From positions 1-64,000 of the forward strand of contig JAVHXQ010000010.1 in the NCBI GenBank assembly GCA_031119555.1: a stretch of 64,000 bases of DNA. The letters run 5' to 3'. Source of the stretch: Candidatus Dactylopiibacterium sp. (GTDB lineage: Bacteria; Pseudomonadota; Gammaproteobacteria; Burkholderiales; Rhodocyclaceae). Below the pieces are notes generated by a model. The model did no database searches, was not told the DNA's origin, and saw only the letters and a list, made by a program, of their open reading frames with translations. Numbering within the stretch: position 1 is the first letter of the stretch; the number at the start of each line of letters is the position of its first letter. Made by a program: the position numbers and the translations under genes. This document shows positions 9,433 to 41,120 of the stretch, piece after piece.

Positions 9433-9441
9433 TGTGGATAA
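9433..9441 (-). promoter_or_regulatory. DnaA box in the rpmH/dnaA promoter region
   Basis: TGTGGATAA is the exact complement of the consensus DnaA box TTATCCACA. It is the only consensus box in the 300-base rpmH-dnaA spacer, and it overlaps the region where the dnaA -35 element is expected. That position suits autoregulation by DnaA. Confidence 0.8.
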
Positions 9442-11061: not shown

Positions 11062-11078
11062 CGGCCACGAGGGTAGGC

Positions 11079-11087
11079 TGTGGACAA
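11079..11087 (-). promoter_or_regulatory. DnaA box (TTGTCCACA type)
   Basis: TGTGGACAA is the complement of TTGTCCACA, one base from the TTATCCACA consensus. It lies 18 bases after the dnaA stop codon. Confidence 0.6.
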
Positions 11088-11237
11088 GTAGCGGTGAAGC
11101 GTGCGGAAGAAATGTGCGAAAGCAGGTCAGAAAGACTCCGGCCTGGAATTGTCCAGAATCGGGCACAGGCTTCAAGGCGGGCTTTCTACAGGCTTCTGAA
11201 CATGGGTAACTCGATGTTTACAAAAGAAGTTAATGAG

Positions 11238-11246
11238 TTGTCCACA
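11238..11246 (+). promoter_or_regulatory. DnaA box (TTGTCCACA type)
   Basis: TTGTCCACA has one change from the consensus. It begins the first copy of the direct repeat and is followed by an AT-rich stretch. Confidence 0.65.
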
Positions 11247-11301
11247 GAAAATGGCCTGATGTATTAGTAGTAAATGGTTTACATAAACAATCTGTTAACA
11301 A
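11238..11301 (+). repeat. oriC direct repeat, copy A
   Basis: This 64-base segment aligns by hand with 11591-11655 at 49 of 64 positions with a single one-base gap. Shared blocks are TCCACAGAAA, TATTAGTA, a TTTA-ATAAA stretch and TGTTAACAA; most differences are transitions. Unlike copy B it has no start codon at the equivalent place. Confidence 0.75.
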
Positions 11302-11430
11302 CAACGACGCAAAGGTCTTCCAGTCGCTTCGTGTTGCAAAAGCGGGCATGCTTCCTTTCTGAAGTACCTGGGCGAGGCCTGAAGTCTGCGCAGGGCAACC
11401 CGGCTTGTTGTGCCTCATCGAGGCAGGAGA

Positions 11431-11439
11431 TGTGGGTAA
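11431..11439 (-). promoter_or_regulatory. DnaA box-like site
   Basis: TGTGGGTAA (TTACCCACA on the other strand) has one change from the consensus DnaA box. Confidence 0.5.
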
Positions 11440-11463
11440 AGCGGCGGGTGGTTTGGGAACGGA

Positions 11464-11473
11464 TTGTGCACAA
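11464..11473. promoter_or_regulatory. Palindromic double DnaA box-like site
   Basis: TTGTGCACAA is a perfect palindrome containing overlapping TTGTGCACA and TGTGCACAA. Each fits a relaxed DnaA-box pattern with one change at the third position. TTGACCACA at 11511-11519 is a weaker candidate close by. Confidence 0.5.
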
Positions 11474-11590
11474 CCTGCGCTCCGGCTCAGGCGGGAAATT
11501 CTGTCCAGATTTGACCACAGGCTTCTCCCCCCGCTTGGCAACAGGGTCATGAACAGGTACAAGCTTTTGAAATTGAATGGATAATTTGTC

Positions 11591-11599
11591 TTATCCACA
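11591..11599 (+). promoter_or_regulatory. Consensus DnaA box upstream of dnaN
   Basis: TTATCCACA matches the DnaA-box consensus exactly. It lies 41 bases before the dnaN ATG and is followed directly by the AT-rich stretch GATATATTAGTAATAGG, a candidate unwinding element or dnaN promoter. Confidence 0.85.
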
Positions 11600-11655
11600 G
11601 AAACTGGTTCGATATATTAGTAATAGGAGATTTATATAAATGCTCTTGTTAACAA
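11591..11655 (+). repeat. oriC direct repeat, copy B, covering the dnaN start
   Basis: This 65-base segment begins with a perfect DnaA box and runs through the ribosome-binding site (AGGAG, 11626-11630) and the ATG of dnaN (11640) into its first five codons. It matches copy A at 11238-11301 at 49 of 64 aligned positions. Confidence 0.75.
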
Positions 11656-12740
11656 GCACTCGTGATGCCTTGCTGGCACCGCTGCAGTCCGTGTCGGGTA
11701 TCGTCGAGAAGCGGCATACCTTGCCCATCCTCTCGAACGTGCTGATCGAGAAGAAAGGCGAAGCGCTCACGCTGCTCGCCACCGATATCGAGATCCAGAT
11801 CACGACCCAGCAGACCACGCAGGCAGGCGAGGATGTTTCGATCACGGTCGGCGCGCGCAAGCTGCAGGACATCCTGCGCGCGCTGCCGGACAGCGAAGTC
11901 AGCCTGATGCTCGACGACAAGCGCCTGACGCTGAAGGCAGGCAAGAGCCGCTACAACCTGCAGACGCTGCCCGCCGCCGATTACCCGCGCATGCAGCTGA
12001 ACACCGGCGAGAGCATCACCGTGCGCCTGCCGCAGAAGGACTTCCGGCGTCAGCTGGCCCAGGTGGCCTATGCCATGGCGGCCCAGGACATCCGCTACTA
12101 CCTGAACGGTCTGCTCATGCAGGTCCTGGGAACCGAGCTGCGCATGGTGGCCACCGACGGCCATCGCCTGGCGTTGTCCTCCAACACGCTGAGCGAGGAG
12201 TTCGCCCGTACCGAAGTGATCCTGCCGCGCAAGACCGTGCTTGAACTCACGCGCCAGCTCGGCGACACCGAGGATCCGGTCGAGATCGTGATCACGGGCA
12301 ACCAGGCATGCTTCCGCTTCGGCCCCATCGAACTCATCACCAAGCTCATCGACGGCAAGTTCCCCGATTACGAACGCGTGATACCGCAAGGCAATCCGAA
12401 GCTCGTCACCGCGCCGCGCGCCAGCCTGCTCTCGGCGCTGCAACGCGCCGCGATCCTGACCAACGAGAAATTCCGTGGCTTGCGCGTCGTGCTCGAATCC
12501 GGCCTGTTGCGCGTCATCAGTTCCAACGCCGAGCAGGAAGAAGCGCAGGAGGAACTGGAAGTTGCGTACTCGGGCGACAGCCTGGAAGTCGGATTCAACG
12601 TGACCTACCTTCTCGACGTGCTCAACAACGTGGGCAGCGACACGATTGAAATCCACCTGAACGAGCCGATGTCCTCGGCCCTCTTCACGCTGCCCGGCAA
12701 CGACCAGTTCAAGGCCGTCGTGATGCCGATGCGGATCTGA
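11640..12740 (+). CDS. dnaN: DNA polymerase III sliding clamp (beta subunit)
   Basis: DnaN forms the ring-shaped processivity clamp of DNA polymerase III. The 366-residue length is that of the family and covers three clamp domains. Recognisable segments are LPILSNVLIEKKGEALTLLA near the N-terminus, VATDGHRLALS near residue 175, LITKLIDGKFPDYERVIP near residue 232, and a C-terminus PGNDQFKAVVMPMRI. AGGAG upstream of the ATG supports the start. The gene follows oriC, and its first codons belong to the direct repeat described separately. Confidence 0.98.
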   Translation: MLLLTSTRDALLAPLQSVSGIVEKRHTLPILSNVLIEKKGEALTLLATDIEIQITTQQTTQAGEDVSITVGARKLQDILRALPDSEVSLMLDDKRLTLKAGKSRYNLQTLPAADYPRMQLNTGESITVRLPQKDFRRQLAQVAYAMAAQDIRYYLNGLLMQVLGTELRMVATDGHRLALSSNTLSEEFARTEVILPRKTVLELTRQLGDTEDPVEIVITGNQACFRFGPIELITKLIDGKFPDYERVIPQGNPKLVTAPRASLLSALQRAAILTNEKFRGLRVVLESGLLRVISSNAEQEEAQEELEVAYSGDSLEVGFNVTYLLDVLNNVGSDTIEIHLNEPMSSALFTLPGNDQFKAVVMPMRI

Positions 12741-35110: not shown

Positions 35111-36577
35111 GTGCCGCCGATTCTTCCCCGGATGTCTGGTTTGTGGTTCTTCTCGTGCCATGCGGGGCGGCTGTCCGCCGCCCTGCCGGCACTCATGCTG
35201 CTCGGCGCCTGCGTGAGCGCACCCGAGCTGGCGCCGCCCGCCGGCCTCGCGCCGACCGGTGACTGGGCCGCCGCGCGGAGCCTTGCCGCGCCCGCCCGCG
35301 ACTGGCCCGCCGAGAGCTGGTGGCGTGCTTACGGCGATGCGCAGCTCGACGCCCTCATCGACGAGGCGGTGGCGGACGCCCCGAGCCTGCAGGTAGCCGC
35401 CGCGCGGCTGCGACGCGCCGAAGCCGGCGTACGGATCGCCGACGCCGCGCGGGGGCCGCAAGTGAGTGGCCGCGCCGCGGCCGAGATGACCAAGCAGAGC
35501 TACAACCTGCTGGTGCCGCGCCAGCAGCTGCCTCAGGGATGGGACAGCTATGGCCGCGCCACGCTGGATTTCAGCTGGGAACTCGACTTCTGGGGGCGCA
35601 ACCGCGCCGCCCTCGCGGCTGCCACGACGGACCTCGACGCGCGCCGCGCCGAGTTCGCGCAGAGCCGCCTCATGCTGGCCGCCGCGATGGCGTCGCACTA
35701 TGCCGAGCTGAGCCGGCTGCACGCCAGCCGCGACACCGCCTTGCGGGCGCTGGAGATCCGCGCGCGCACGGCGTCGTTGTTCACCCAGCGCTTCGGTAAC
35801 GGGCTGGAGACGCGCGGCAGCCTGCGTGATGCCGATGCCCGCCGCGCGGTGGCAGAAGGCGCGCTGCTGGCGGTGGAGGAACAGATCGCGCTGCAGCGCA
35901 ACCGCATCGCTGCGCTGCTGGGCGCCGGGCCCGACCGTGGTCTGGCGATCGCGCGGCCCGCGCTCGCGCTGGACCGGGCTTTCGGCCTGCCCGCGCAGCT
36001 CCACTTCGATCTGCTGGGGCGGCGCCCCGACGTGACGGCCGCGCGCTTGCGCGCCGAAGCCGCCGCGCGACGCATCGACGTGGCCGAGGCGGAGTTCTAT
36101 CCGAACGTGAATCTGGCGGGCTTCGTGGGGCTGCAGGCACTCGGGCTGGACCGCATCACGCGCAACGGCAGCGAAATCGGCAGCGTGGGGCCGGCGATCT
36201 CGCTGCCCATCTTCAACGGCGGCCGCCTCAAGGCGCAGTACGCCGGGCGTCGCGCCGAGTACGACGAAGCAGTGGCCGACTATCGCGCCACCGTCGCGCG
36301 CGCGCTGCAGGAAGTGGCCGACAACGCGGTGAGCCAGCAGGCGCTCGGCCAGCGCCTCGACAAGGCCGACGAGGCCGTGGACGCCGCCACCGAGGCGCAT
36401 CGCGTGGCGCGCGACCGCTACGAAGGCGGGCTCGCGAACGCCCTCGAAGTGCTCTCCGCCGAAGACCGGCTGCTCGACAGCCTGAGCGCGCGCACCAACC
36501 TGCGCGCGCTTTCCTGGACCCTGGACATCGACCTGCAGCGCGCGCTCGGAGGCGGTTACCGCCTCGCCGCGCGCTGA
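35111..36577 (+). CDS. Outer-membrane efflux lipoprotein (NodT/OprM family)
   Basis: This is the TolC-like outer-membrane channel of a drug efflux pump, about 488 residues. The signal peptide ends in the lipobox LLGAC, so the protein is probably lipidated. Two outer-membrane-efflux repeats are visible (WWRAYGDAQLDALIDEAVADAPSL begins the first, LLGRRPDVTAARLRAEAAAR the second). GTG at 35111 is proposed because AAGG sits 9 bases upstream. ATG at 35102 is too close to that site, and ATG at 35132 lacks one. It is the first gene of the efflux operon, 45 bases before emrA. Confidence 0.92.
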   Translation: MPPILPRMSGLWFFSCHAGRLSAALPALMLLGACVSAPELAPPAGLAPTGDWAAARSLAAPARDWPAESWWRAYGDAQLDALIDEAVADAPSLQVAAARLRRAEAGVRIADAARGPQVSGRAAAEMTKQSYNLLVPRQQLPQGWDSYGRATLDFSWELDFWGRNRAALAAATTDLDARRAEFAQSRLMLAAAMASHYAELSRLHASRDTALRALEIRARTASLFTQRFGNGLETRGSLRDADARRAVAEGALLAVEEQIALQRNRIAALLGAGPDRGLAIARPALALDRAFGLPAQLHFDLLGRRPDVTAARLRAEAAARRIDVAEAEFYPNVNLAGFVGLQALGLDRITRNGSEIGSVGPAISLPIFNGGRLKAQYAGRRAEYDEAVADYRATVARALQEVADNAVSQQALGQRLDKADEAVDAATEAHRVARDRYEGGLANALEVLSAEDRLLDSLSARTNLRALSWTLDIDLQRALGGGYRLAAR

Positions 36578-36622
36578 AGCGCGTCTTCCCCGCCTCACCG
36601 GAATCTCTCAAGGAATTTCCTC

Positions 36623-37753
36623 ATGACCCAGCCTCACTCCGCCGCCGACATCGCCCTCAAGCAACGCCGCAACCAGCGCCTGCTGGCCCTGGGCGGCGGC
36701 ATCCTCCTGCTTGCCGCTGCCTCGGGCGCGTACTGGTTCCTGCATGCGTCGCACTTCGTGTCCACCGACAACGCCTACACCGCGGCCGAGGTCGCCCAGA
36801 TCACGCCGGCGGTCGGCGGAACCGTGGCCGAAGTGATGGTCAGCGATACCCACACCGTGCGCCAGGGCGACGTGCTCGTGCGCATCGACCCCGTGGACGC
36901 GCGCCTGGCGCTGGCCCAGGCCACCGCCGAGCTCGATCGCGCGACGCGCCGCGTGAAAGCCTACATGGCCACCGACGCCAACCTGGGCGCCCAGGTGCAG
37001 GCGCGTGAAGCCGACGGCGCGCGCGCCGCCGCGCAGCTCGATGCGATCCAGGCCGACTTCGAGCGCGCCCGCGTGGACCTCCAGCGCCGTGAGGCGCTCG
37101 TGGCGTCCGGTTCGGTGTCGGGCGACGAACTGACGCGCGCCAAGAACGCGTTCGATGCCAGCGCCGCCCAGCTCGCGGCGGCGCGCGCGGCCATGACGCA
37201 GACCGCCGCCAACCTGCGTTCGGCCGTGGCGGCCAAGGCGGCCAACGCCACGCTGATCAGCGATGCCACGGTGGAATCCAACCCCGAGGTGGCCGCCGCG
37301 CGCGCGCGGCTGGACCAGGCCCGCGTGGATCTCGATCGCACCGTGCTGCGCGCGCCGGTGGACGGCGTCGTGGCGCGTCGCCAGGTGCAGCTGGGCCAGC
37401 GCGTGCAGCCCGGCATGCCGCTGATGGTCGTGGTGCCGGTGGCCGAGCTTTACGTGGATGCCAACTTCAAGGAAGTGCAGCTGGAGAAGGTGCGCGTGGG
37501 GCAACCGGTGGCGCTGCATTCCGACCTGTACGGCAAGGGGGTGGTCTATCACGGCATCGTCGAGGGCTTCTCCGGCGGCTCGGGAGCGGCGTTCGCCGCG
37601 ATCCCCGCGCAGAACGCGACGGGCAACTGGATCAAGGTGGTGCAACGCCTGCCCGTGCGCGTCAAGCTGGATGCCGCCGAGCTGAAGACGAACCCGCTCA
37701 AGCTGGGGCTCTCCATGCACGCCGAGATCGACACGCGCGGCGTGCGTCACTGA
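36623..37753 (+). CDS. emrA: EmrA-type membrane fusion protein
   Basis: This 376-residue HlyD/EmrA-family periplasmic adaptor links the inner-membrane EmrB pump to the outer-membrane channel. It has one N-terminal membrane anchor (LLALGGGILLLAAASGAYWF), the lipoyl motif STDNAYTAAEVAQITPAVGG near residue 48, and a long alpha-helical hairpin (about residues 95-215). The second lipoyl segment is LDRTVLRAPVDGVVARRQV. AAGGAA precedes the ATG. It lies between the NodT-type channel gene and emrB. Confidence 0.95.
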   Translation: MTQPHSAADIALKQRRNQRLLALGGGILLLAAASGAYWFLHASHFVSTDNAYTAAEVAQITPAVGGTVAEVMVSDTHTVRQGDVLVRIDPVDARLALAQATAELDRATRRVKAYMATDANLGAQVQAREADGARAAAQLDAIQADFERARVDLQRREALVASGSVSGDELTRAKNAFDASAAQLAAARAAMTQTAANLRSAVAAKAANATLISDATVESNPEVAAARARLDQARVDLDRTVLRAPVDGVVARRQVQLGQRVQPGMPLMVVVPVAELYVDANFKEVQLEKVRVGQPVALHSDLYGKGVVYHGIVEGFSGGSGAAFAAIPAQNATGNWIKVVQRLPVRVKLDAAELKTNPLKLGLSMHAEIDTRGVRH

Positions 37754-37769
37754 AAGCGGAGCCTTCGCC

Positions 37770-39314
37770 ATGAGTCACGCCCTCCCCGCGCCCGCCGCGT
37801 CCGAGCAGGCGCCGCTGGCCGGCCCGATGCTGTGGGTGGCCGCGCTGATGCTCGCGGCCGCCAACTTCATCGCCGTCCTCAACATGACCATCGCCAACGT
37901 GGCCGTGCCCAACATCGCGGGCGCGCTGGGCGCGGCGACCAGCCAGGGCACCTGGGTCATCACCTCGTATGCGGTCGGCGAGGCGATCACCGTGCCGCTC
38001 ACCGGCTGGCTCGCCGCGCGCTTCGGCGCGGTGCGGGTGTTCGTGGGCTCGATGATCCTGTTCGGTGCTTTCTCCATCGTCTGCGGCCTGTCCACCTCGC
38101 TGGGCGTGCTCGTCGTGGCGCGGGTCTTCCAGGGCCTTTGCGGCGGCCCGCTCATGCCTTTGTCGCAGACGCTGCTGCTGCGCATCTTTCCGAAGAGCAA
38201 GGCAGCGGCCGCCATCGGTCTGTGGTCGATGACCACGCTGGTCGCGCCGGTGGTGGGGCCCATCCTGGGCGGCTGGCTGTGCGACGAATACAGCTGGTCG
38301 TGGGTCTTCCTCATCAACGCGCCGATCGCGATCGGCTTCGGCCTCTACGCGTGGTCGCTGCTCAAGCGCTACCAGGCCATCGGCCAGCGCAGCCCCATCG
38401 ATCTGGTCGGGCTGGGCCTGCTGATCGTGTGGGTGGCGGCCCTGCAGCTCGTGCTCGACGAGGGCAAGAATCTGGACTGGTTCGCGTCGACACAGATCGT
38501 CGTGCTCGCCGTCGTGGCGGCCATCGGCTTCGCGGTCTTCCTCGTCTGGGAGCTGCATGAGCCCCATCCCATCGTCGATCTGCGCGTGTTCCGCCATCGC
38601 GGCTTCACGGTGGCGGTGCTCACGATCAGCCTCGCCTTCGCGGCGTTCTTCGGTGTCAGCGTGCTCACGCCGCTGTGGTTGCAGAGCTTCATGGGCTACA
38701 CCGCGACGGACGCCGGATTCGCCACCGCGTGGACCGGGGTGACGGCGTTCTTCCTGGCGCCGCTGGTGGCTTCCAGCAAGCGCGATCCGCGTCAGCTCGT
38801 GTTCGCGGGCGTGGTGTGGATGGGGCTCGTCACGCTGTGGCGGACCTTCGCGAACACCGACATGGGGTTCTGGGACGTGGCCGTGCCGCTCATGGTGATG
38901 GGGCTGGCGATGCCGTTCTTCTTCATTCCGAGCACCACCCTCGCGCTGGCGAGCGTGACCGAGCGCGAGATGGATTCGGCGGCCGGCCTCATGAACTTCC
39001 TGCGCACGCTCTCCGGCGCGTTCGCGACGTCGCTCGTGACCACGGTCTGGAGCAACCGCATCACCTACAACCATGCCGAACTCGTCGGCCTGGCCGACCG
39101 TGACCATGGCGTGACCGCACAGCTGGTGGCCCAGGGCACGCCGCCCGACACCGCCAACCAGATCGTCGATTACCTGCTTACGTCGCAGAGCGTGATGCTG
39201 TCGACGAACCAGGTGATGACCTCGATCGGCGTGCTGTTCCTGTTCGCCGCGCTGATCATCTGGTTCGCGCCCCGGCCGACGCGCAGCGTCGAGCCCGGCG
39301 CGGGCGGGCACTGA
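37770..39314 (+). CDS. emrB: EmrB-type DHA2 drug exporter
   Basis: This 514-residue major facilitator of the DHA2 (14-helix) family exports hydrophobic compounds by proton antiport. Features are LNMTIANVAVPNIAGALG in helix 1, WVITSYAVGEAITVPLTGWLAARFG (motif A region), RVFQGLCGGPLMPLSQTLLL (motif B) and WSMTTLVAPVVGPILGGWL (motif C, the antiporter motif). It starts 16 bases after emrA. The substrate range cannot be read from sequence. Confidence 0.95.
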   Translation: MSHALPAPAASEQAPLAGPMLWVAALMLAAANFIAVLNMTIANVAVPNIAGALGAATSQGTWVITSYAVGEAITVPLTGWLAARFGAVRVFVGSMILFGAFSIVCGLSTSLGVLVVARVFQGLCGGPLMPLSQTLLLRIFPKSKAAAAIGLWSMTTLVAPVVGPILGGWLCDEYSWSWVFLINAPIAIGFGLYAWSLLKRYQAIGQRSPIDLVGLGLLIVWVAALQLVLDEGKNLDWFASTQIVVLAVVAAIGFAVFLVWELHEPHPIVDLRVFRHRGFTVAVLTISLAFAAFFGVSVLTPLWLQSFMGYTATDAGFATAWTGVTAFFLAPLVASSKRDPRQLVFAGVVWMGLVTLWRTFANTDMGFWDVAVPLMVMGLAMPFFFIPSTTLALASVTEREMDSAAGLMNFLRTLSGAFATSLVTTVWSNRITYNHAELVGLADRDHGVTAQLVAQGTPPDTANQIVDYLLTSQSVMLSTNQVMTSIGVLFLFAALIIWFAPRPTRSVEPGAGGH

Positions 39315-39337
39315 GTCCTTTCCTGCGGAGGCAGACC

Positions 39338-39781
39338 ATGTTCCGGCACATCCTGGCACCCACCGATGGCTCTCCCCTCTCGCTCGCCGCGCTGGCGCAG
39401 GCCGCCCGGCTCGCACGCGAGCACGGCGCGCGGCTCACGCTGTTCCATGCGCTGATCGACGTGCCCGCGCCCTATGAGGGGCCCGGCACGATAGGCCACG
39501 GCAGTTTCGCGCGCGACGTGCGCGAGCAGCTCGAAGCGGCGGCGCGTGAGATCCTCGATGAAGCGCAGGCCCGCGTGGCCGAGGCAGGCGTGCCGTGCGA
39601 GCGATGCGTGGCGGCGGGCGCGCACGCGCACGCGCTCATCATCGCGGCGGCCGAAGCCGGCGGCTGCGACCTGATCTTCATGGCCTCGCATGGCCGGCGC
39701 GGGCTCAGCGCGCTGCTGCTCGGCAGCGAGACGCAAAAGGTGCTCACGCATACGCGCATCCCGGTGCTGGTGTATCGCTGA
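39338..39781 (+). CDS. Universal stress protein (UspA family)
   Basis: This is a 147-residue single-domain Usp. The nucleotide-binding loop near the C-terminus reads ASHGRRGLSALLLGSETQKVL, close to the G-2x-G-9x-G(S/T) pattern of ATP-binding Usps but with Ala for the first Gly. The N-terminus FRHILAPTDGSPLSLAAL is typical. GGAGG precedes the ATG, and the gene starts 23 bases after emrB with no terminator between, so it is probably the last gene of the efflux operon. Confidence 0.93.
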   Translation: MFRHILAPTDGSPLSLAALAQAARLAREHGARLTLFHALIDVPAPYEGPGTIGHGSFARDVREQLEAAAREILDEAQARVAEAGVPCERCVAAGAHAHALIIAAAEAGGCDLIFMASHGRRGLSALLLGSETQKVLTHTRIPVLVYR

Positions 39782-39799
39782 GTGGCGCGCCAGACGGCA

Positions 39800-39819
39800 C
39801 GTCCGACCCGGGTCGGACG
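39800..39819. repeat. 20-base perfect palindrome between convergent genes
   Basis: CGTCCGACCCGGGTCGGACG is a perfect palindrome between the end of the Usp gene and the end of the cystathionine gamma-synthase-like gene. There is no loop and no T run, so it is not a classic terminator, though it could form a cruciform or be a bidirectional pause element. Confidence 0.6.
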
Positions 39820-39881
39820 CGTGTTGCGCCGCGCGCTCCCGGGCGGAGCGCGGCGCGCGATGGCGTTCCCGGCGCGGGCGT

Positions 39882-41120
39882 TCAGGCCGCGGCGGCCAGG
39901 GCGTGGCTGAAGTCCGCGATGAGGTCGTCGGCGTCTTCTATGCCCACCGAAATGCGCACCGTGCCGTCGGCGATACCCATCTCGGCGCGGCGTACCGGCC
40001 CCATCTCGGCGTAGATCGTGTGCGCCACGGGGATCACGAGCGTGCGGTTGTCGCCCAGGTTGCTCGCCAGCACCGCAAGCTGCAGTGCGTCGAGGAAGCG
40101 GAAGCAATCGACCTCGGGCTTGAGCTCGATCGCCATCAGCCCGCCGAAATGGCGGAACAGCGCCTTGGCGCGCTCGTGCTGCGGATGGTTGGCGAGGCTG
40201 GGGTGGAAGACGCGGGCCACCGCCGGATGCGCGGCGAACCAGGCCGCGAGCCGCGCGGCGTTGGCCGAGGAGCGGTCCTGGCGCAGCGCCAGGGTCTCGG
40301 CGCCGATCGCGATGTGGTGGGCGGATTCCGGCGCGAGCGTGGCGCCCATGTCGCGCAGGCCCTTCTTGCGGATCTGCTGCAGGCCCCAGTTGGCGGGATC
40401 ACCCTTGCGATAGGTCTCGAGGATGTTGGGATAGGCGCTCCAGTCGAAGGCGCCGGTTTCGGTGATGGCGCCGCCCAGGGCGTTGCCATGGCCGCCGATG
40501 TATTTCGAGAGCGAGTTGATGATCAGCCCCGCGCCCACCGTGCGTGGCTGGAAGCACCAGGGCGAGGTCATGGTGTTGTCGACGATGTAGAGCAGGCCGC
40601 GCGCCGCGCACAGCGCGCCGATGCCGGCCAGGTCGGCGATCTGCGTGCAGGGGTTGGCGATGGTTTCGACGAAGACCGCGCGCGTCGTGGGGCGCAGCGC
40701 CGCGTCCACGTTGGCGGCCTCGGTGGCGTCGACGAAGCTGACGTCGATGCCGTAAAGCGCCAGCGTGTTGAACACGCTGTTGGTGTTGCCGAACAGGAAG
40801 CTGCTGGACACCACGTGGTCGCCAGCCTTGAGCAGGGTGAGCAGGGTCGCGCTGATCGCGGCCATGCCGGTGGCCACGCAGCAGGTGGCCCGGCCGCCTT
40901 CCATGAGTGTGATCTTGCGCTCGAGGGCGGTGACGGTCGGATTGACCTGGCGGCCGTAGGTGAAGCCGGCCTGCTTGCCCTGGAAAACGGCGGCGATGTC
41001 GGCGGCCGTGGCGTGTTCGAAGGTGATCGAGTTGTGCACGGGCTGGTGCAGCGAGCCGTGTTCGATGCCGGCGGAACGGTCGCTGTGCAGGACGGCGGTG
41101 GTGAAGCCTCGGGTGCTCAT
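39882..41120 (-). CDS. Cystathionine gamma-synthase family PLP enzyme
   Basis: This 412-residue enzyme of the Cys/Met-metabolism PLP family acts on O-acyl-homoserine or cystathionine-type substrates. The PLP lysine lies in NSLSKYIGGHGNALGG near residue 205. Other family segments are FTYGRQVNPTVTALERKI near residue 55, VATGMAAISATLLTLL near residue 85, VVSSSFLFGNTNS, FVETIANPCTQIADL, VDNTMTSPW, and VRISVGIEDADDLIADF at the end. The protein is closest to the 'cystathionine gamma-synthase family' group rather than to MetB or MetZ proper; the exact reaction is uncertain. ATG at 41120 is chosen on family grounds, with 41141 as an alternative. Confidence 0.88.
   Translation of the reverse strand: MSTRGFTTAVLHSDRSAGIEHGSLHQPVHNSITFEHATAADIAAVFQGKQAGFTYGRQVNPTVTALERKITLMEGGRATCCVATGMAAISATLLTLLKAGDHVVSSSFLFGNTNSVFNTLALYGIDVSFVDATEAANVDAALRPTTRAVFVETIANPCTQIADLAGIGALCAARGLLYIVDNTMTSPWCFQPRTVGAGLIINSLSKYIGGHGNALGGAITETGAFDWSAYPNILETYRKGDPANWGLQQIRKKGLRDMGATLAPESAHHIAIGAETLALRQDRSSANAARLAAWFAAHPAVARVFHPSLANHPQHERAKALFRHFGGLMAIELKPEVDCFRFLDALQLAVLASNLGDNRTLVIPVAHTIYAEMGPVRRAEMGIADGTVRISVGIEDADDLIADFSHALAAAA

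Follow-up and report, generated by a model that had tools for sequence, protein, structure and literature searches.

We consider it probable that the spacer between dnaA and dnaN in this Rhodocyclaceae genome is a tandemly duplicated chromosome origin, in which two putative DnaA-dependent unwinding modules follow each other on the same strand. Descriptions of bacterial origins usually include a single unwinding element. The source genome (G000) is an assembly of 99 contigs; the whole stretch of DNA that was analysed, 64 kb long, is referred to here as the window, and its genus as g1. The features of the upstream module (A) and of the downstream module (B) are collected in Table 1. Each module of about 220 bp comprises a reverse box, an upstream block, an AT-rich stretch, a DnaA box, a 15-bp gap, four to five trios, a TTTATATAA-like stretch and a GTTAAC element.

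Table 1. Coordinates of the origin features and flanking genes in the window.
Feature	Position	Strand	Basis or remark
Single perfect DnaA box upstream of dnaA, outside the duplication	9433-9441	-	box scan
dnaA	9637-11061	+	ORF; served as query, matched in relatives
dnaA-dnaN spacer	11062-11639	+	578 bp; contains both origin modules
Putative origin module A (upstream copy)	11079-11301	+	left edge from reverse box at common offset, not from alignment
DnaA box TTGTCCACA, 1 mismatch (module A reverse box)	11079-11087	-	box scan
Upstream conserved block, module A	11150-11173	+	83% identity to 11502-11525
DnaA box A, TTGTCCACA, 1 mismatch	11238-11246	+	box scan
Second least stable 40-bp stretch of the window	11259-11298		nearest-neighbour energies
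DnaA-trios A: TAT TAG TAG TAA	11262-11273	+	exact 15-bp gap after box A
GTTAAC element of module A, non-coding	11294-11299		kept in 11/12 upstream copies
Inter-module stretch	11302-11430		poorly conserved across species
Putative origin module B (downstream copy), overlaps dnaN start	11431-11655	+	left edge from reverse box
DnaA box TTACCCACA, 1 mismatch (module B reverse box)	11431-11439	-	352 bp from box at 11079
Upstream conserved block, module B	11502-11525	+	83% identity to 11150-11173
DnaA box B, TTATCCACA, 0 mismatches	11591-11599	+	at -49 from dnaN ATG
Least stable 40-bp stretch of the window	11612-11651		nearest-neighbour energies
DnaA-trios B: TAT TAG TAA TAG GAG	11615-11629	+	15-bp gap; overlap AGGAG Shine-Dalgarno-like 11625-11629
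dnaN	11640-12740	+	ORF; matches in 193/199 family genomes
GTTAAC element within dnaN codons 3-5	11648-11653		sequence

Extent of the repeat in the dnaA-dnaN spacer

The sequence-only reading of this DNA had reported an imperfect direct repeat, differing mostly by transitions, between 11238-11301 (copy A) and 11591-11655 (copy B). Our recount gives 49 identical columns out of 65; of the other columns, 12 are transitions, 3 are transversions and one is a 1-base gap. Other details reported there are present as well: both copies have a DnaA box and then GAAA at their start, copy B contains the dnaN ribosome-binding site, the ATG at 11640 and the first codons, and the ATG is gone from copy A. Copy A is for the most part without AGGAG and ATG, and the origin elements are retained in it. 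Chance similarity is ruled out by a local alignment score of 46 between 11062-11400 and 11401-11760, as compared with a maximum of 18 over 2000 dinucleotide shuffles. An assembly artefact was dropped as an explanation because the same structure is found in G078 (on a single contig) and in G158 (on two contigs). A search of a plasmid collection gave no match.

The repeat is longer than had been described. The two upstream blocks form a further pair at an offset of 352 (353 for the main pair), and this pair belongs to an upstream match of 70 columns that reaches significance by itself (score 22 against a shuffle maximum of 17; 0/2000). The parts of module A that align with the downstream copy are 11136-11202 and 11238-11301; in the dnaN-coding part past 11655 the repeat is undetectable in the window (score 7, below the shuffle mean of 8.2). 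In six duplicated congeners the spacer halves align over 249-322 columns. The longest alignment, in G005 (253/322 columns, 79%), runs from at least 60 bp inside dnaA, a lower bound set by the edge of the aligned stretch, to 31 bp inside dnaN, and the unit identity is 75% in G004, 70% in G002, 66% in G001, 62% in G006 and 61% in G003. The whole dnaA-dnaN origin unit was duplicated in tandem, and the 64/65-bp repeat is the end of this larger duplication that has stayed conserved. The suggestion that the dnaN 5' region had been copied into the origin thus had the direction wrong: a copy of the dnaN 5' end alone was dropped because the repeat extends further upstream, reaching dnaA in G005, and the dnaN start was carried along in the duplication because the conserved module extends into dnaN.

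The location is that of a chromosomal oriC: the spacer lies between dnaA and dnaN, has clustered boxes (4 of the 9 DnaA boxes with at most one mismatch in the 64 kb fall within its 578 bp) and is near the GC-skew switch, with the skew minimum about 25 kb away. This cumulative minimum is found to the right of dnaN (36000-40000 of the window) and not at the spacer, and the same holds in G006. Additionally, the reverse box about 200 bp upstream of dnaA has a counterpart within 500 bp in 13 of the 14 g1, g13 and g8 loci with upstream sequence, the window included, and perhaps serves dnaA autoregulation.

Unwinding pattern and constraint in the two copies

According to the rule given by Pelliciari et al. 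2021 (PMC8287927), the basal unwinding system (BUS) is recognised by a DnaA box that is followed on the same strand, after no more than 16 bp, by three or more NAN trios, and a degenerate second box with up to 4 mismatches is tolerated. When up to 2 mismatches to TTATCCACA, a gap of 0-16 bp from the box to the first trio and three or more consecutive NAN trios are asked for, copy A has a box with 1 mismatch, a 15-bp gap and 4 trios, and copy B a box with 0 mismatches, a 15-bp gap and 5 trios. Each module has one strong DnaA box ahead of the trios where B. subtilis has a co-oriented pair; only strong boxes were scored here. In the relatives we applied the rule more strictly (no more than 1 mismatch in the box, a gap up to 16 bp, four or more trios). 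Both copies carry such a site on the plus strand in 12/12 duplicated genomes of g1 and g8, and two further g8 genomes, G225 and G244, also pass at both copies, which brings the count to 14/14.

The geometry of these sites is uniform. The gap is 15 bp in 14/14 g1 copies, and 16 bp fits 10/10 g8 copies; the longest trio run in copy A of G187 used a gap of 10. The copy B box is located at -49 from the dnaN ATG in all 14 g1 and g8 genomes except G004, and box A lies 163-195 bp past the dnaA stop in 12/12 duplicated genomes. We scanned long stretches for a box with at most 1 mismatch, a gap of 15 or 16 and at least 4 trios on either strand. The 64-kb window contains only two BUS-type sites, which are copies A and B, and 400 kb of G006 likewise contain only the two copies of that genome. 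Dinucleotide shuffles of the upstream part yielded a BUS-type site in 7/6000 cases; one extra weak site of this pattern is present on the minus strand in G004. The two least stable 40-bp stretches of the window fall one in each copy when nearest-neighbour energies are ranked over the whole window with stretches kept more than 60 bp apart. Judged by their sequence, both copies have the layout of the DnaA basal unwinding system. The idea that upstream copies generally have better trios was not borne out, trio scores being mixed in g1 and g8. The motif AGATCT, which resembles an E. coli ATP-DnaA site (PMC12342881), is present in 4/12 upstream copies (G003, G014, G125, G158).

The same layout bears on how the work could be divided between the copies. 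It is conceivable that only copy B opens and that copy A is a DnaA-binding helper, looping onto B or tuning timing in the manner of the upstream oriC1 of B. subtilis and H. pylori. Such an arrangement has parallels in C. difficile, where both subregions are needed for melting, and in H. pylori and its relatives, where DnaA bridges them (PMC7561715, PMC5043019), and it would agree with copy B holding the -49 position that the module also occupies in the single-copy congener G007. We regard it as unlikely: boxes would be enough for a helper, whereas 12/12 upstream copies scored also preserve the trio register and the 15/16-bp gap, and copy A is nearly as unstable as copy B. The roles could also be reversed, with copy A as the working origin and copy B retained chiefly for the sake of dnaN, to allow its translation and its control by DnaA. 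The upstream copy of G239, with 5 consecutive trios vs 1 in the dnaN-proximal copy, and the location of both G004 modules off the dnaN start are in line with this, but the intact box B, gap and trios in 12/12 g1 and g8 genomes go beyond what a ribosome-binding site needs, and in the window it is copy B that has the better box and one more trio, which makes this division quite unlikely.

In order to find further copies, we searched 395 family genomes with a profile of the 68-bp core, built from these modules except those of G225 and G244, which are therefore independent finds. The search returned 31 matches of at least 42 bits, the next best scoring 29.7 bits. These are pairs in 7 g1 and 7 g8 genomes and single matches in G007 and in two genomes of the sister genus g13. 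No match of at least 42 bits was found outside g1, g8 and g13 in this filtered search, whose filters may lose weak matches. A separate search covering the available genomes of g8 gave two matches in 7/7. Exactly two strong copies are thus present in 7/8 g1 and 7/7 g8 genomes.

Constraint extends over both copies. Between six g1 species (G004 was left out for its layout), the matched fraction per length is 0.81 for core A vs 0.49 in shuffled sequence and 0.85 vs 0.46 for core B; the upstream halves of A and B reach 0.66 and 0.65 vs 0.35 and 0.32, and the inter-module stretch (0.47 vs 0.36) is near the shuffled level. The first four trios of 12 upstream copies lie in sequence without an apparent coding role, and still A occupies the middle position in 48/48 of them, as compared with 2/48 for the first position and 9/48 for the third. 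When 27 modules are compared, the trio As and most positions of the box either do not vary or are retained in at least 90% of them. Unlike these single bases, whole cores do not set the upstream copies apart: mean identity is 0.71 among g1 upstream copies, no higher than the 0.72 between a copy A and the copy B of another genome. The matched fractions and the retained bases show that both copies are constrained across species. The similarity was to be dismissed, according to the sequence-only reading, if relatives had one copy and the other was free of constraint; g1 and g8 show the opposite, with both copies following the BUS rule in 14/14 duplicated genomes. A decaying remnant without a role is accordingly a very improbable account of copy A, even though the window's copy A has a box mismatch, one trio fewer and no ATG, and some lineages have one copy only. 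Upstream copies group across species with their elements intact (support 60 in g8, and 79 in g1 for a clade that includes G005_B and G004_B), and the stretch adjoining copy A has decayed while copy A was kept.

The upstream copy is non-coding and so separates origin constraint from dnaN constraint, which exposes an element that would otherwise be read as dnaN codons. GTTAAC ends both copies in 11/12 cases each, and in the downstream copies it forms part of dnaN except in G004. Codons 4-5 of dnaN start with TTAAC in 14/14 module-adjacent g1, g13 and g8 spacers and in 0/39 short-spacer genomes. In G004, where the dnaN start is detached, the same peptide is encoded with CTC ACA, and 14 of the 39 short-spacer genomes encode the same MLLLTT with CTC ACC. 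GTTAAC is a feature of the g1/g13/g8 clade, since other single-copy genera have different residues and codons at this position. The heptamer GTTAACA recurs without dnaN at an apparently relocated origin beside earP (L189, L194) and also in L195. It moves together with the module and is lacking in dnaN genes that have no module next to them. GTTAAC thus resembles an origin element more than something demanded by the coding sequence, and we suggest that it could be bound by a protein or mark the boundary of the opened DNA.

Distribution and history of duplicated spacers

The spacer is 578-641 bp long in six g1 genomes, the window included, and 1035 bp in G004. Single-module relatives have shorter spacers, of 238 bp in the congener G007, where the lone module occupies the same position as copy B, and of 216 and 282 bp in the two g13 genomes. 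In G004 (L006, spacer at 466-1500) both modules are detached from the dnaN start and yet persist, a natural separation from dnaN signals.

Among 161 distinct spacers, 39 were at most 110 bp long, 102 were 111-300 bp and 20 were longer. The 102 mid-length and 20 long spacers were tested for self-duplication, which was called at z of at least 8. The test was positive for 18 of the 20 long spacers: 7 in g1, 7 in g8, 3 in g62 (G239, G151, G342) and that of Candidatus Accumulibacter aalborgensis (L090). The two long spacers without clear self-duplication are L101 (380 bp, z 0.2) and L229 (G152, 1514 bp, z 3.1), and none of the mid-length spacers exceeded z 3.8. Single spacers (209-260 bp) are present in 7 of the 10 g62 genomes with a readable spacer; five further g62 stretches held no usable dnaA-dnaN pair, and G239 had been picked for its paired profile matches. 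The relatives of Candidatus Accumulibacter aalborgensis (L094, L095, L098) are single-copy.

None of the four duplicated spacers outside g1 and g8 has two BUS sites. G239 has one (box with at most 1 mismatch), in its upstream copy, and with such a box no site was found in G151, G342 or Candidatus Accumulibacter aalborgensis, even with 3 trios. When 2 mismatches are allowed in the box, G342 and Candidatus Accumulibacter aalborgensis each have one 3-trio site.

A DnaA+DnaN+GyrB tree places g8 as sister to g1+g13 (support for g1+g13, 84) and G007 at the base of g1. The g8 copies all belong to a single clade (99) of the module tree, which divides into a clade of B copies (87) and one of A copies (60), and the g1 upstream copies form a clade (79) in which both G005 and both G004 copies are nested. 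The simplest reading of these trees, with moderate support, would be separate duplications in the g1 core and in g8, followed by homogenisation in G005 and G004; further duplications in g62 and in Candidatus Accumulibacter aalborgensis are likewise the simplest reading there. One older duplication with losses and conversion is not favoured, because the g8 copies group together (99) and g13 and G007, which lie between the two groups in the species tree, are single. Origin doubling thus seems to have arisen several times, and most related bacteria examined have one copy or none at dnaA-dnaN.

Recombination between direct repeats, by gene conversion or re-duplication, might keep the copies alike with no selection for two. 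The nesting of G005_B and G004_B in the upstream-copy clade of g1 and the 79% likeness of the G005 copies over 322 columns are what such a process would leave. Recombination of this kind would also delete a copy, however. Elsewhere the two copies have drifted apart (unit identity 61-62% in G003 and G006; core identity 69-75% in these two genomes and in the window) although each retains the same elements, so that we give this explanation hardly any credence.

In the short-spacer genera (at most 110 bp; Thauera/Azoarcus/Zoogloea type) no BUS match was found in the 13 loci scanned. Profile matches occur elsewhere in these genera, in L189 (1189-2015), L194 (4019-4081), L195 (4004-4068) and L198 (4000-4724). 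The gene earP adjoins the matches in L194 and L189 (by Pfam) and in L198 (by ORF resemblance), and dnaN lies some 28 kb from the match in G115 (L194) and 47 kb from it in G055 (L198). Two tandem modules are present in L189 (145/241 columns) and L198 (199/288 columns), and the sites beside earP look like a relocated, again doubled, oriC. Weaker module matches were observed in genus g67 (L196, 4046-4101; L197, 4074-4129); rdgC adjoins the match in L196 (Pfam), where more DnaA boxes lie between earP and a pseudouridine synthase-like ORF. In genus g42 (G048, G103) the matches in L192 (2365-2416) and L193 (2134-2184) are accompanied by a second module-like site about 6-7 kb from the other match; the distance in G048 is 6.2 kb if contig C1 is circular.

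Proposed mechanism and comparison with known origins

We infer that in the cell each copy is bound by DnaA and unwound. DnaA would bind the box at the end of either module, an ATP-bound DnaA oligomer would extend rightwards from the box onto the trios, and the AT-rich stretch would open toward dnaN, as in the B. subtilis basal unwinding system, for which such an extension from box to trios with opening has been modelled (PMC10721633). Copy B would double as the ribosome-binding site and start of dnaN and copy A would be free of that duty; relief from the dnaN overlap may favour keeping the extra copy. Several observations weigh against this reading: two BUS sites are not seen in the four duplicated spacers outside g1 and g8, G007 and the two g13 genomes examined do with one copy, G004 has its weak minus-strand site, the skew minimum lies away from the spacer, and the G005 and G004 copies, being homogenised, illustrate that likeness can be upheld by recombination in the absence of selection.

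A broader proposal can be put forward only tentatively, namely that dual-site origins evolved several times in Rhodocyclaceae. The whole unit would have been duplicated in tandem independently in at least four lineages, both unwinding sites would be used, as alternative starts or with each loading helicase, and the gain would be a site freed from overlap with the dnaN start; the unit would include the previously unrecognised GTTAAC inside dnaN, also present in single-copy members of the clade. A clade with natural one- and two-module members offers a comparative test of the effect of a second module on initiation and, through the conserved parts as opposed to the decayed inter-module stretch, of what else an origin needs.

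The modules resemble the BUS of B. subtilis in that a DnaA box and, no more than 16 bp further on, three or more NAN trios share a strand and precede an AT-rich unstable stretch (PMC8287927). Unlike the BUS as described there, they occur as two complete tandem copies in one spacer, with copy B overlapping a start codon. The survey program in that study settles on one candidate for almost every genome and would thus hardly report a second copy.

Bipartite origins, as described for B. subtilis, H. pylori and C. difficile (PMC7561715, PMC5043019, PMC13220808), share with this spacer two separated DnaA-binding subregions near dnaA. Their two box clusters are usually separated by dnaA, and the unwinding element lies in one of them only (PMC7561715), whereas here one spacer contains both subregions, which are copies of one another with a set of trios in each. 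A bipartite oriC across dnaA was rejected because only a single box with at most 1 mismatch (9433-9441) is found within 500 bp upstream of dnaA. Candidate trios and instability minima are present in both copies, not in one subregion. The sequence-only reading had suggested, as a second possibility, two equivalent unwinding modules that would make oriC bipartite: two modules in one spacer are supported, since both agree with the BUS rule in 14/14 duplicated genomes of g1 and g8, but the term does not apply in its usual sense of flanking clusters with one unwinding element.

The putative double origins of DoriC are another case of origin duplication in bacterial chromosomes; examples are the duplicated rnpA-dnaA-dnaN clusters of M. 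bovis BCG Pasteur and the doubled dnaA of Acidaminococcus (PMC4403523). The examples given there carry dnaA along or lie hundreds of kb apart, whereas here the origin unit alone is doubled, in most of a genus, and the doubling recurs in other lineages. Among the titles and abstract openings of the literature matches listed, no tandem dual-module origin was described, and a search for Rhodocyclaceae with oriC and DnaA box found no paper. Bipartite origins, duplicated origin regions and the BUS are known, and what appears to be new is the tandem arrangement of complete modules in one spacer, kept in most of a genus.
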